Both the position numbers and the translations under genes were made by a program. From the NCBI GenBank assembly GCA_005239725.1, contig SBBM01000021.1, positions 1 through 43,384 of the forward strand: a stretch of 43,384 bases of DNA, read 5' to 3'. Below the pieces are notes generated by a model. The model saw only the letters and a list, made by a program, of their open reading frames with translations. It was not told the DNA's origin and did not search any database. This stretch comes from Planctomycetales bacterium. GTDB taxonomy: Bacteria > Omnitrophota > Gorgyraeia > Gygaellales > Profunditerraquicolaceae. Below are positions 18,671 to 24,945 of this stretch, piece after piece (positions within the stretch are counted from its first letter, which is position 1; each line of letters starts with the position of its first letter).

Positions 18671-20629
18671 TTATTCCTGCTGTTCTTCAGGCTTTTTTGA
18701 GGCTTGATACTGGTTTATAATCCCTGAGGCAATTTTATGAGGAACCTCTTCGTAATGGGAAAAACGCATCGTATATGTGCCCCTGCCCCCGGTTATGGAG
18801 CGCAGGTCATTGGCGTAAGTAAACATCTCAGCTAAAGGGACTGAAGCCTTTACCATCTGGGATTTGCCTTTAATATCCATACCCATAATTCTGCCCCGCC
18901 GGGAGTTTATATCTCCGGATATGGCACCCAGATATTCTTCCGGGATAACTACCTCTACATCCATTATGGGTTCAAGCAAAACCGGGCCTGCGGATATTAC
19001 TGCTTTCCTTAAAGCCATTGCCCCGGCAATCTGAAAGGCCATATCCGAAGAATCTACCTCATGGTATGAGCCGTCCACAAGCGTTACTTTAAGGTCAACA
19101 ATGGGGTACCCCGCGACCGCACCTTCTGCGCATGCCTGGAGTATGCCTTTTTCTGCCGAGGGTATAAAGTTTTTTGGAATAGCGCCCCCGAAAATCTTAT
19201 CCACAAATTCAAAACCCTTGCCCCTCTCCTGCGGTGCAACCTCAATCCAGACGTCTCCGTACTGGCCGCGGCCTCCTGACTGACGTTTGAATTTCCCCTG
19301 TATCTTCACGCTCTTAGTAATCGTCTCTTTATAAGAGACTTTCGGCTTGCCGAGGTCTACCTCAACATTAAACCTCTTTTTCATCCTGCCGACCATCACC
19401 GCAAGGTGCAAATCTCCCAACCCGGAAATAATCAGTTCCTTTGTCTGCGGGTCATGCGCAACCTTAAAAGTAGGGTCTTCTGCGGCGAGTTTATGCAGGG
19501 CGCCCGAAATTCTGTCTTCATCCTGGCGTGTTTTAGGCTTAACCGATGCCGATATTGCCGGTTCAGGAAAAACAATAGGCTCAAACAAAACCTGTTCCTT
19601 TTCATCAGAGAGCGAATCCGAAGTTGTCGTATCTTTGAGTTTGGCGATTGCCACAATATCGCCGCAGGAAGCAGAATCAACCGTCCTCTGTTCTTTGCCC
19701 TGAAGAATATAAATAGACCCGATTCTTTCTTTAACCCTTTTATTTACGTTATAAAAACCGGTATTATTCATAAGTGTTCCGGAAAAAACCCGAAGCAGGG
19801 TAAGCTGGCCCACATAGGGGTCAGATATATTCTTAAAAACAAATGCCGCAAAAGTCCCATCCTGCTTAAAAGTCAGGTCTCTTTTTTCTTCGGTTTTTGC
19901 GGGACTACTTATTGCTATTTTTGTCCGCTCTAAGGGGTTAGGGAAATACTGAATGGCGATATCTAATAATTCGCTCAAGCCTTTATCTGCTAACGCTGAG
20001 CCCAAAACAACAGGAAAAACCTTGCGCTTATTCACTGCCTGATGCAATCCCTCTTTAAGTTCCTCATCGGATAACTTTGCACCTTCAAGGTATTTCTCCA
20101 GTAACTTGTCGTCACTCTCGGCAATGGCCTCAATCAAATCCGGAGACTCGCAGTCTATTATTGCCGCCCCCTTGGAAAACGTCCTCTTTATATCCGCTAT
20201 GACCTTATGGGCATCCACGCCTTCCTTATCGGTCTTATTGATGAATATAGCGCAAGGGATACCTGCTTCTTCCACTATTTCCCAGGCGCGTTCAGTCCCT
20301 ACTTCGACGCCGGAAGCCGCATCCACAACTATGACTGCGCTATCCACGGCGCGCACACCTGAAATCACCTCGCCGGAAAAATCAAGATAACCCGGGGCAT
20401 CAATAATCTGAAATCTCACATTTTTATAATCGCAGTATAAGAGACTTGAGTTTATGGAACTTTTCCTCTCTATTTCATCAGCGCTGTAATCGCTTACAGT
20501 AGTCCCATCACTAACAGTACCTTTCCGATTTGTGGCTTTAGAGAAATAAAGCAGGCTTTCGGCGAGGGTGGTCTTTCCTGACTGGGCGTGGCCTAAAAGA
20601 ATGACGCTCCGTTTGTTCGCGACATCCAT
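18671..20629 (-). CDS. Elongation factor G-like GTPase (FusA2 type)
   Basis: The 652-residue protein has all EF-G domains. G1 is GHAQSGKT (13-20), G3 DAPG (77-80) and G4 NKTD (131-134). Domain II is around 260-350. Domain IV contains RQSGGRGQYGDVWIEV and AVAGYPIVDLKVTL, and domain V contains LLEPIMDVEVVIPEEYLGA. It is shorter than canonical EF-G (about 690-700). The usual DTPGH is DAPGY, so the His that activates water in translational GTPases is Tyr, as in FusA2/EF-G2-type paralogues. It is probably not the main translocase; a ribosome-linked stress or tolerance role is inferred. The start has GGAG upstream and a strong promoter. Confidence 0.9.
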   Translation of the reverse strand: MDVANKRSVILLGHAQSGKTTLAESLLYFSKATNRKGTVSDGTTVSDYSADEIERKSSINSSLLYCDYKNVRFQIIDAPGYLDFSGEVISGVRAVDSAVIVVDAASGVEVGTERAWEIVEEAGIPCAIFINKTDKEGVDAHKVIADIKRTFSKGAAIIDCESPDLIEAIAESDDKLLEKYLEGAKLSDEELKEGLHQAVNKRKVFPVVLGSALADKGLSELLDIAIQYFPNPLERTKIAISSPAKTEEKRDLTFKQDGTFAAFVFKNISDPYVGQLTLLRVFSGTLMNNTGFYNVNKRVKERIGSIYILQGKEQRTVDSASCGDIVAIAKLKDTTTSDSLSDEKEQVLFEPIVFPEPAISASVKPKTRQDEDRISGALHKLAAEDPTFKVAHDPQTKELIISGLGDLHLAVMVGRMKKRFNVEVDLGKPKVSYKETITKSVKIQGKFKRQSGGRGQYGDVWIEVAPQERGKGFEFVDKIFGGAIPKNFIPSAEKGILQACAEGAVAGYPIVDLKVTLVDGSYHEVDSSDMAFQIAGAMALRKAVISAGPVLLEPIMDVEVVIPEEYLGAISGDINSRRGRIMGMDIKGKSQMVKASVPLAEMFTYANDLRSITGGRGTYTMRFSHYEEVPHKIASGIINQYQASKKPEEQQE

Positions 20630-20724: not shown

Positions 20725-21909
20725 TTATTCCAGGTAAGTATAAATCTTTGTCCGGTAGTTACGCAGGACATACTTTCCTTTTGCCTGGGAAAGTATATAG
20801 TTTGGGCTAATTGGAATTTTACCGCCGCCGCCGGGGGCATCAATGACATAGGTAGGCACGGCATAACCTGAGGTATGGCCCCTTAGTTTCTCCATTATAT
20901 TTATGCCCACGCTCACCGGGGTGCGGAAATGCTGCGTGCCTCTTACCGGGTCGCACTGATAAATATAATACGGCCTGACCCTTATTTTCAGGAGTTCATG
21001 CATAAGTTTACGCATAATATAAGGCCTGTCGTTTATGCCGTTTAAAAGTACGGTCTGGCTCCCCAAGGGGATTCCGGAATCAGAAAGCATACCGCAGGCT
21101 ATTTTAGTGCGCCTGGTAATCTCTTTTGGATGGTTAAAATGCACGCTCATCCAGAGAGGAGAGTATTTTTTAAACACGGAAATCAGGCCTTCAGTGATGC
21201 GCTGAGGCAAAGTCACAGGGACACGGGTGCCAATCCTTAAAAACTCCACATGCGAGATATCGGTTATTTTCTTAAGCAGGCTGTCTAAAACTTCGTCCTC
21301 GAGGAGCAAAGGGTCTCCTCCGGAGATAAGCACATCCCGGATTTTCTTATTCCCGCGGATATATTCAATTGCGGCATCCCACCTGTTCAATGAATTATCC
21401 GTATGTTCTTCATGGCCGACAATCCGCCTTCTTGTGCAATGCCGGCAATACATCGCACATTGCTCAGTGGCTAAAAGGAGCACTCTGTCAGGATAGCGGT
21501 GCACCAGGTGCGGGGCAGGCGAATCCGCATCTTCAGCAAGGGGGTCAATCATTTCATAAGGCCCGACCTGGAATTCATGTTTTAAGGGAACTGCCTGGCG
21601 CCGTATAGGGCAGCTTGGGTCATCTGGCTCGATTAATGTTGCCCAGTAAGGGGTAATAGCCATACTCAGCCTGCCCCTGGCATTCTTTATGCCTTCCTCT
21701 TCTTCCGGGTTAAGCCTTATAATCTGTGATATTTCGTCGAGCTTTGTAATACGGTTCTTTATCTGCCAATGCCAATCTTCCCAATCCAAAGGATTAACGT
21801 CTTTATAGAGGTTTATCTGCTGATAATCCCGCGCCCTCTTGCCGGGCTTTGCGATAACACTGATTTCCGCTGCAAGTTTCTGATTATCCGTAATCGCCGT
21901 ATTATCCAT
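20725..21909 (-). CDS. kamA: Lysine 2,3-aminomutase (radical SAM, PLP)
   Basis: KamA converts L-lysine to L-beta-lysine using SAM, a 4Fe-4S cluster and PLP. From ATG 21909 the protein has 394 residues. It contains the cluster motif CAMYCRHC (Cys151, Cys155, Cys158), HRYPDRVLLL before it, SGGDPLLL, RIGTRVPVTLPQRIT, YYIYQCD with the substrate-binding Asp, and DAPGGGGK with the PLP Lys and second substrate Asp. This is the full lysine 2,3-aminomutase pattern, and a better match than the shorter EF-P lysine mutase EpmB. ATG 21909 is preferred over an upstream start at 21954 because AGGAGG lies 10 nt before it. It overlaps the preceding ATP-grasp gene by 8 nt. No beta-lysine acetyltransferase (ablB) gene is adjacent. 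Confidence 0.93.
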   Translation of the reverse strand: MDNTAITDNQKLAAEISVIAKPGKRARDYQQINLYKDVNPLDWEDWHWQIKNRITKLDEISQIIRLNPEEEEGIKNARGRLSMAITPYWATLIEPDDPSCPIRRQAVPLKHEFQVGPYEMIDPLAEDADSPAPHLVHRYPDRVLLLATEQCAMYCRHCTRRRIVGHEEHTDNSLNRWDAAIEYIRGNKKIRDVLISGGDPLLLEDEVLDSLLKKITDISHVEFLRIGTRVPVTLPQRITEGLISVFKKYSPLWMSVHFNHPKEITRRTKIACGMLSDSGIPLGSQTVLLNGINDRPYIMRKLMHELLKIRVRPYYIYQCDPVRGTQHFRTPVSVGINIMEKLRGHTSGYAVPTYVIDAPGGGGKIPISPNYILSQAKGKYVLRNYRTKIYTYLE

Positions 21910-22909
21910 CCGTAGTTTTCCTCCTTTTTGAGGCGCTTGACAATATGGCCTCAATAAGATCTTCGTATTTCATACCCGCGGCATACGCCATTATCGGAAA
22001 ATTTGACTCTCGAGGGTTAAGCCCCGGAAGGGGGTTTATCTCCAGGACATAAGGTATATTATTTTTATCCAGGCGGATGTCCGTGCGGGAAATATCAAGG
22101 CACTGCACCGCACGATGGGTCCTTAAGGCTGTTTCTTTCACTAATTTTTCGGTCTCTTTATCCAGGCGCGCCGGGCAGTGGAATGTAGGGGTAAGCCCCA
22201 AATCAGCGTCACCCTGGAATTCCTTCATGCGCCAGGAATAAAAATATTCGCCGCTCTTTTTGCAGGTTGAAAAATCAATCTCCAATATCGGCAGGACAAC
22301 GGGCTTGCCGTTTTCCAGTATGCCCACGGTTAACTCCTTGCCGTCGATAAATTCTTCAACCAATACCTCTTGTTTATAGGCGTTTATTATCTCTTTAACC
22401 TTGGCAAAAAGTTCTTTTTCCGAATGTACGACATTGGAGGCGTTTATCCCTTTTGCCGAACCCTCGCAATTAGGCTTTACTATCAGGGGAAACTTAAGGT
22501 TTCGGTCTAACTTTTCATTTCCTTTCTGGAAAACCTGGAATGCCGGGGTAGGGATATTTTCTGCCTTGAGTATTTTTTTGGTGAGGGCCTTATTCAGGGC
22601 CAAGGCGAGGGAAAATGTGCTTGAGCCTGTATATGGTATGCCAAAATAGTCTAATATTGCGGGTATTTCGGATTCGCGGAACTTGCCGTGTTTTCCTTCC
22701 GCAATATTAAAAACCATGTCTATGCGGTTATTTTTAAAAAAAGAGAACAGGTTCGGGTGGTCCCCTTCGATGAATTTTACTTTGTGACCTTTAGACTCTA
22801 ATGCGCCCGTTATGGCATTTATGGTCTCCTGGGAGTCAAACTCCGAGAAATAATCCGCAGGCTTTGTTTCGTCTTCTTTTTTGAGGTTAAAAGTTAAGGC
22901 AATGTCCAT
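21902..22909 (-). CDS. D-Ala-D-Ala ligase-like ATP-grasp enzyme (second of two)
   Basis: The 335-residue protein has the ATP-grasp signature: FPLIVKPNCEGSAKGI (about 145-160), a VEEFIDGKELTVGIL strand and EINPLPGLNP near 300. The Ddl substrate loop differs from true D-Ala-D-Ala ligases: where Ddl has HGxxGEDG it reads FNIAEGKHGKFRESEIP. It belongs to a Ddl-like side clade of carboxylate-amine ligases. It overlaps kamA by 8 nt (ATGGATAA), so it is translationally coupled to it. A role joining an amino acid, possibly beta-lysine, to a peptide-like acceptor is inference; the substrate cannot be read from the sequence. Confidence 0.88.
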   Translation of the reverse strand: MDIALTFNLKKEDETKPADYFSEFDSQETINAITGALESKGHKVKFIEGDHPNLFSFFKNNRIDMVFNIAEGKHGKFRESEIPAILDYFGIPYTGSSTFSLALALNKALTKKILKAENIPTPAFQVFQKGNEKLDRNLKFPLIVKPNCEGSAKGINASNVVHSEKELFAKVKEIINAYKQEVLVEEFIDGKELTVGILENGKPVVLPILEIDFSTCKKSGEYFYSWRMKEFQGDADLGLTPTFHCPARLDKETEKLVKETALRTHRAVQCLDISRTDIRLDKNNIPYVLEINPLPGLNPRESNFPIMAYAAGMKYEDLIEAILSSASKRRKTTDG

Positions 22910-24055: not shown

Positions 24056-24165
24056 TCAATATAAAAAAAGGCTCTTATCTTTTAGAGCCTTAAATTTTCC
24101 CCCTCATTTTTTAGCTTTTCTTAACTTTCCTCCCCAAGGTGGCTTCTCCACTATCTGGTATAACA
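24056..24165 (-). ncRNA. Candidate regulatory leader (attenuator or riboswitch) of the ATP-grasp/KamA operon
   Basis: Between the promoter and the ATG at 24055 lies about 110 nt of leader. It contains a GUGG/CCAC hairpin (about 24151-24139), a purine-rich middle, and a terminator hairpin that ends a few bases before the start codon. A possible 15-codon mini-reading frame (GTG 24151 to TGA 24104) has five Lys codons but no clear ribosome binding site. I do not recognise a known riboswitch class. Premature termination controlled by a ligand, by translation of the mini-frame or by a protein is inferred from the layout. Confidence 0.5.
24062..24091 (-). terminator. Intrinsic terminator in the operon leader
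   Basis: On the minus strand AAGGCTCT (24091-24084) pairs with AGAGCCTT (24075-24068) around an 8-nt loop, followed by a run of T residues to about 24063. The position, downstream of the promoter and directly upstream of the first start codon, suits an expression platform. It would also stop read-through from the UPF0280 gene. Confidence 0.85.
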
Positions 24166-24171
24166 ACTATA

Positions 24172-24200
24172 AATTTATCACAACATATTGTCGTTGTCAA
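24172..24200 (-). promoter_or_regulatory. Strong sigma70-type promoter of the ATP-grasp/KamA operon
   Basis: On the minus strand TTGACA (24200-24195) and TAAATT (24177-24172) are separated by exactly 17 bp. The -35 box is a perfect consensus. It starts 8 bp after the UPF0280 stop codon. Confidence 0.8.
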
Positions 24201-24207
24201 GCATTTT

Positions 24208-24945
24208 TTAATCTGTTAACTCCACCTTTCCTCCGACGACAAAAGTATCTCCCAATATAATCAAGGCGCCTAAAATTCCTCTTAGAGAACGGGCAAAATT
24301 TAAGGCGGAGGGAAGGTCCTCTTTAGAATTCACGCGATTACCGGCAGCTGTGGCCACGGCATCCGCCAGAGAGGCATCTTTAGCCAAAATAACCACGCTA
24401 TCGGCGCATCCGAAACTCAAAGAGTGCCCCACAGTGCCCGAAGATGTGCATATGCCCAGAGGGGTATTTTCCGGTTTTATCTTCAGGCGCAATTTATTTG
24501 ACAACTTTGAATCCCCGGCATATATCCCTACCTTTAATATTCTGGTCGCCTTTAGAAATATATCGCCGCCGTTTTCGATAATCACGTCTTTAAAGCCCCG
24601 CCTTAATAAATCTCTGCCTAAAAATTTTGCAATTGCGCCTGCTACCGCCGCCATAGGGCCGACCTGCGCTTTTTTCGCACTTCGCGCCATATCCCGGACA
24701 ATCTCCGGCGCATTAAGCTCGACGGCGATAGGTTTAAGGCTGGTTAGAAATCTCCTGTCCTTGGCTATATAACCTTCAATCTGGCTGCGGTAAAGATTAA
24801 CTCTTTCTTTTACAAATTCTTTATCCAGAGGCTTATCAGTAAAAATCTGCAAATCAGTTTCCTTTACGCAAACCTTCTCCTGATACAATCTTTTTGAACA
24901 AGTCAGTTCGCGGTAAAACCTGGGCTGATATTTATTAATTTTCAT
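24208..24945 (-). CDS. UPF0280 family protein (ApbE-like fold)
   Basis: The 245-residue protein carries the UPF0280 core: SAKKAQVGPMAAVAGAIAKF (about 89-108), VIIENGGDIFLK (about 123-134), and LGICTSSGTVGHSLSFGCAD with AVATAAGNRV further on. The family is structurally related to the flavin transferase ApbE, but its function is not established. Length is normal. The ATG overlaps the HAD gene by 11 nt. It is the last gene of the long string that begins near 39.3 kb, and the next operon has its own promoter just after its stop. Confidence 0.85.
   Translation of the reverse strand: MKINKYQPRFYRELTCSKRLYQEKVCVKETDLQIFTDKPLDKEFVKERVNLYRSQIEGYIAKDRRFLTSLKPIAVELNAPEIVRDMARSAKKAQVGPMAAVAGAIAKFLGRDLLRRGFKDVIIENGGDIFLKATRILKVGIYAGDSKLSNKLRLKIKPENTPLGICTSSGTVGHSLSFGCADSVVILAKDASLADAVATAAGNRVNSKEDLPSALNFARSLRGILGALIILGDTFVVGGKVELTD

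Follow-up and report, generated by a model that had tools for sequence, protein, structure and literature searches.

A conserved leader with an intrinsic terminator, very likely a transcription attenuator, upstream of an ATP-grasp and lysine 2,3-aminomutase operon in Omnitrophota

The AG1-AG2-KamA operon and its leader

The window (the whole stretch of 43,384 nucleotides that was analysed) contains an operon of two ATP-grasp ligase genes, AG1 and AG2, and a lysine 2,3-aminomutase-type gene, KamA, which is preceded by a promoter, a leader and an intrinsic terminator. The features of the locus are the following:

24208..24945, minus strand: UPF0280/PRK04334-type gene, with its stop codon just before the promoter; not a constant neighbour in relatives
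24195..24200, minus strand: −35 hexamer TTGACA, invariant in the 53 non-redundant leaders tabulated
24172..24180, minus strand: extended −10, TG + A + TAAATT (lineage consensus TRTGNTAAAAA)
24092..24165, minus strand: 5' part of the leader RNA, with a start at about 24165 predicted from the −10
24104..24151, minus strand: GTG mini-frame of 15 codons, 5 of them Lys; not conserved
24063..24137, minus strand: match to model R1 (77 positions), 58.1 bits
24129..24133, minus strand: GGAGG of the conserved unpaired core
24092..24128, minus strand: rest of the core up to the stem, diverged in the window (GCTAAAAAATGAGGGGGAAAA, no UUG)
24061..24091, minus strand: intrinsic terminator with an 8-bp stem, an 8-nt loop and a T-run; the only covarying helix
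23036..24055, minus strand: AG1, ATP-grasp ligase of the D-Ala-D-Ala-ligase type, first gene of the operon, with its start codon after the terminator
21902..22909, minus strand: AG2, second ATP-grasp ligase of the D-Ala-D-Ala-ligase type
20725..21954, minus strand: KamA, lysine 2,3-aminomutase-type radical SAM enzyme; the listed start overlaps AG2 and the true start may lie further in

The product of KamA scores 527.3, above the curated threshold of 525.4 for lysine 2,3-aminomutases, and aligns with structure 2a5h over 363 residues, including the QCD and VxDAPGGGGK segments, which we take to hold the two lysine-binding aspartates. This resemblance, the closest that KamA has, gives no more than indirect support to the lysine or beta-lysine chemistry guessed at in the original prediction. 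The protein stops about 50 residues short of the C-terminus of the Clostridium enzyme 2a5h. An EF-G-type gene lies after KamA (18671-20629 in the window), and EF-G and/or ychF follow the operon in many relatives. Nothing was found in the literature on the AG1-AG2-KamA operon. Beta-lysine is an osmoprotectant, and a lysine 2,3-aminomutase gene of Dehalobacter is under riboswitch control (PMC9337991). Both facts render regulation of an aminomutase operon plausible; neither bears on the present leader.

The promoter, the leader and the 8-bp terminator stem with its U-run before the start codon, all of which had been predicted from the window alone, were located on the minus strand between 24200 and 24061. 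The −10, TAAATT at 24177-24172, is separated by the predicted 17-nt spacer from a perfect TTGACA and carries a TG extension, with 10/12 matches to the consensus. The leader is about 100-105 nt long, and its terminator stem-loop, AAGGCTCTAAAAGATAAGAGCCTT (24091-24068), is followed by the T-run, which leaves 6 nt before the ATG of AG1 (24055). The small hairpin described earlier is also present, as a weak one of 4 bp. Folding of the window leader was not unusual with respect to shuffles (z = −0.42, single sequence) and, as a consequence, comparison with relatives was needed to decide whether the element is real. In the core, GGAGG is kept and UUG is missing at the expected place, for which reason the window copy is regarded as diverged. 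The AG1 start has no Shine-Dalgarno sequence in the window and in most relatives; such a sequence does precede many other window genes. Finally, a dyad, ACAATAT.TTGT, occurs in the promoter spacer (24178-24194) and again about 31 bp downstream, near +10, and the same is seen in relatives. This dyad looks like a possible tandem operator; its conservation is modest, and it could not be told apart from promoter and AT bias.

Conservation of the promoter, the leader and the terminator

Among 53 non-redundant leaders, those without a recognisable promoter having been left out, TTRTGNTAAAAA is nearly invariant and TTGACA fully so. The pattern TTGACA-N14-TGNTAAAA gave 74 matches in 30 genomes, compared with 1 for the reversed pattern used as control and 8 for the TGNTATAAT variant. 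On these counts, TGNTAAAA is the usual strong extended −10 of the lineage and the leader promoter an ordinary, strong one, so that the earlier description of its −10 as merely good was an understatement. A special sigma factor for an odd −10 was rejected, since TGNTAAAA is common in these genomes. One and the same scan found both the core and a terminator within 200 nt in 49 of 65 leaders and behind 0 of 40 other promoters with the sequence of the leader promoter.

Model R1 was built from alignment A1, comprising 28 leaders from GGAGG to the U-run. In the window's own genome it recovered only the window site, at 58.1 bits, the next best place scoring 24.4. Across 58 relatives, it was present as a single copy in each of 35 genomes, always directly upstream of AG1; in G015 a second match was antisense and overlapped the main one. 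The positive genomes include six outside the training set (G038, G041, G044, G046, G051 and G023), and R1 was not detected in G005, G020, G024 and G027, which are the genomes lacking a close AG1 ortholog. The AG1 protein itself was found in most relatives, where the upstream sequences have a common layout. A scan of GTDB contigs for AG1 yielded 80 loci, and every one with a named phylum belongs to Omnitrophota. R1 matched just upstream of AG1 in 78 of these 80 loci, some of which may repeat genomes of the 58-relative scan, and one additional weak match was antisense. Conservation upstream of orthologous operons, on which the original prediction had made itself depend, was therefore observed.

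The order AG1-AG2-KamA and the leader in front of it are constant around these loci and the upstream neighbour varies, being a UPF0280 gene, a HAD gene, an unrelated gene or a gene on the opposite strand. Since the upstream gene changes while the operon is constant, the promoter and the terminator belong to AG1 and not to the neighbour. For the same reason, a terminator of the upstream gene was rejected. An independent small RNA was rejected as well, because the element was never found away from AG1 in the 58 genomes and 80 loci. In 41 of the 78 loci, no more than 30 nt separate the ATG of AG1 from where the terminator match ends, mostly without a Shine-Dalgarno sequence and with no room for a promoter, and therefore AG1 would be expressed there only via read-through of the terminator. 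Palindromic insertions of about 60-200 nt were seen between the terminator and the AG1 ATG at L110, L143, L101, L103, L105 and L016 (for example CACAATTTATG...CATAAATTGTG), and they resemble repeat or MITE-type elements.

In other families of the order and the class, a promoter of the same type is found at the site and the sequence of the terminator is replaced with its position kept, the different sequences being AAGAGACAC.., GGGATAG.., GGGACTC.., AGGAACC.. and GGCC.. In addition, many of these families again show GGAG(G/A) plus, ahead of the stem, AAAUUGAAA or AAUCAAAA. Under the scan used, the promoter or the core was missing in families f15, f25 and f34, and the terminator in a few loci. 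All these data indicate that the leader is not a product of chance and that, with high probability, it is a genuine on/off switch not described before.

The unpaired core and its spacing

In the mutual information over 65 non-redundant leaders, the terminator alone covaried convincingly while keeping its pairing. In an 80-row alignment, which was fitted to the terminator helix, 6 of 7 terminator pairs have changed on both sides, a value reached by 0 of 500 shuffles. No conserved pairing was found outside the terminator in the 65 leaders, and the region there is C-poor (7% C) with folding energies like those of shuffles (mean z −0.02). A looped-out hairpin between GGAGG and NTG can be drawn in single sequences (the window and L104) and was discarded for want of covariation, as was pairing of a U-run and an A-run around the core, where no compensatory change was seen.

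The core in relatives reads GGAGG-N12-15-(U/G/A)UG-RAAAA. From GGAGG to NTG there are 13.2 ± 0.84 nt, a spread partly set by the search (11-15 allowed), from NTG to the stem 24.8 ± 1.5 nt, and from GGAGG to the stem 38.1 ± 1.6 nt (n = 74, spacings taken from motif-matching rows); the distance from the promoter to GGAGG varies freely (sd 13 nt). Taken together with the replaced terminators, this marks the spacing and the unpaired core as the parts that selection would keep, whereas the terminator sequence turns over. The first base of NTG is T in 56, G in 3, A in 2 and C in 0 of 61 leaders, in rows selected for NTG, and an in-frame stop occurs within 8 codons of it in 45 of the 61. A peptide as such is unlikely to be what matters, because conservation does not extend to the reading frame that follows NTG, and the triplet itself is missing from the window, from L160, L175 and L132 and from some leaders of families f23 and f39 (AAUCAAAA). 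A short peptide that recurs in one clade (TTG GAA AAA xxx GGN, MEKxG) was likewise rejected as a conserved product, because elsewhere the A-run has indels, a stop follows at once (NTG-TAA) or NTG is lost. The Shine-Dalgarno sequences of ordinary window genes, where present, stand at short spacing, and thus the 12-15 nt between GGAGG and NTG do not make a normal start site.

A proposed mechanism and its alternatives

A promoter, a leader and an intrinsic terminator before the start codon, conserved together with the operon, are what is expected of an attenuator, and we consider it very likely, from comparative sequence data, that the leader is a cis-regulatory transcription attenuator of AG1-AG2-KamA. 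The premature termination foreseen in the original prediction is strongly supported by the comparison; the two ways proposed there of controlling it, by a riboswitch or by lysine codons, are not.

As to how it could work, transcription from the strong housekeeping promoter would produce a leader of about 100 nt and would end by default at the terminator before AG1. A competing antiterminator hairpin appears to be absent, and some 38 nt ahead of the stem begins the rigid, unpaired, C-poor GGAGG-N12-15-UUGRAAAA. If a trans-acting factor occupied this core before the polymerase passed the U-run, the hairpin would be kept from forming and read-through would result. The most economical factor would be a ribosome, or a 30S subunit, that GGAGG retains on the leader, in many cases at a minimal ORF of 1-8 codons. 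The coupling would be of the pyrBI type, and expression would then depend on how soon a ribosome loads as RNA polymerase advances. We lean slightly towards this combined reading, namely a cis attenuator lacking an antiterminator hairpin, with read-through upon occupancy of the core and the ribosome as the most economical factor. For the ribosome taken by itself as the factor that acts on the core, our assessment stays a little below even.

One of the closest known systems is the leader of pyrBI in Escherichia coli, which has a 44-codon ORF spanning the terminator and U-rich pauses, whereas the ORF of the present leader is minimal or absent and its frame is not conserved. In both, the leader combines an intrinsic terminator with a ribosome-binding sequence, a putative one in the present case, no antiterminator competes, and a ribosome near the hairpin would block it (PMC4824070). 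As for placement, GGAGG and NTG stand at a fixed distance, but the spacing is long and NTG is missing in the window and in some other leaders. In E. coli, a ribosome with its stop codon within about 27 nt of a terminator represses that terminator, and pyrBI is controlled in this manner (PMC4824070). Most in-frame stops in the leaders would put a ribosome closer to the stem than these ~27 nt. However, ribosomes usually fail to repress terminators that lie in the first 100 bp of a coding region (PMC4824070), and a pause or fast ribosome loading would therefore be needed. The GGAGG-NTG spacing of 12-15 nt, greater than that of ordinary window genes, and the loss of NTG in some families count against the ribosome, and the divergence of the core in the window copy counts against the combined reading.

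The main rival is that the core is the site for a dedicated RNA-binding protein or a base-pairing small RNA that prevents or favours the terminator, with GGAGG unused by ribosomes. An unpaired conserved sequence at a fixed distance from the stem, a frame that is not conserved and the persistence of GGAG and the A-run in families where UUG is replaced would all suit this explanation. Protein-dependent antitermination is known for the targets of TRAP, HutP and LicT, in which a conserved sequence near the terminator is read by a protein. The present leader likewise has a conserved sequence near its terminator, but it shows neither GAG/UAG triplet repeats nor a RAT-type hairpin, and no candidate protein gene was recognised in the conserved neighbourhood. 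In addition, a single target per genome is unusual for a global RNA-binding protein, and the GGA-binding protein CsrA was excluded, being encoded in 0 of 35 genomes with the controls positive. We regard this rival as rather unlikely.

A terminator of fixed efficiency that damps a strong promoter, or a short terminated RNA that is itself the product and leaves the operon to leak-through, seems to us improbable to a further degree. No alternative structure was found, termination would yield a short, well-defined RNA, and in many loci insertions part the terminator from the ATG, all of which would fit. However, a conserved core 38 nt upstream would be needless for a fixed terminator, a small RNA gene would be expected to occur sometimes away from AG1, which was never the case, and the AG1 ATG lies within 30 nt in 41 of the 78 loci.

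Very little speaks for a riboswitch in which lysine, beta-lysine or an operon product would be the ligand that switches the terminator, and we give it only a slight chance. A leader with a terminator before a metabolic operon is a suitable layout, and the tandem Na+ and c-di-AMP riboswitches of Dehalobacter ablA exert terminator-based control before a lysine 2,3-aminomutase gene (PMC9337991). However, those are large structured aptamers, whereas the terminator is here the sole conserved and covarying structure in 65 non-redundant leaders, which gave no sign of a covarying aptamer fold or antiterminator. The C-poor core is no more structured than shuffles, and Rfam families, the lysine riboswitch among them, did not match the leader at gathering or relaxed thresholds.

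A lysine-codon leader-peptide attenuator is scarcely credible: the predicted 15-codon GTG frame with five Lys codons is indeed present (24151-24104), and the leader RNA, the intrinsic terminator and the metabolic operon recall the trp and his attenuators, but the frame is private to the window genome and has no ribosome-binding site, the best Lys frame per leader averages 1.15 Lys codons versus 1.17 in shuffles, and neither a conserved run of cognate codons nor alternative, mutually exclusive hairpins were found in the 65 leaders. A frame as Lys-rich as that of the window arises in 1.3% of shuffles of the window leader.

A second leader, of about 190 nt and also conserved, was seen behind a TTGACA..TRTGNTAAAAA promoter and before a gene for a signal-peptide protein (MSKRLILILALAF...). 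It occurs at L256:215-520, L257, L258, L259, L231, L232, L236 and L239, and in the window's own genome at G000:C28:29899. It shows long-range complementarity (TATACCACTGG...CCGGTGATATA, with GGAGGTGAA inside) and gave no Rfam, tRNA or tmRNA match of note.

Attenuators are known as a general kind; the present leader, which is real, undescribed and deeply conserved, is very likely one of them. Almost nothing seems to have been published on gene control in Omnitrophota, and among the papers searched none joined this phylum with riboswitches. The layout is kept from close relatives to families whose AG1 proteins are about 50% identical. Tentatively, this may represent a class-wide Omnitrophota attenuator working without an antiterminator fold, in which a GGAGG-UUGRAAAA core, fixed in its distance from a replaceable terminator, would be read by the ribosome or an RNA-binding factor. 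The leader offers a convenient system in which to study how a terminator can be controlled without an antiterminator, and it points to AG1-AG2-KamA as a regulated pathway of these bacteria.
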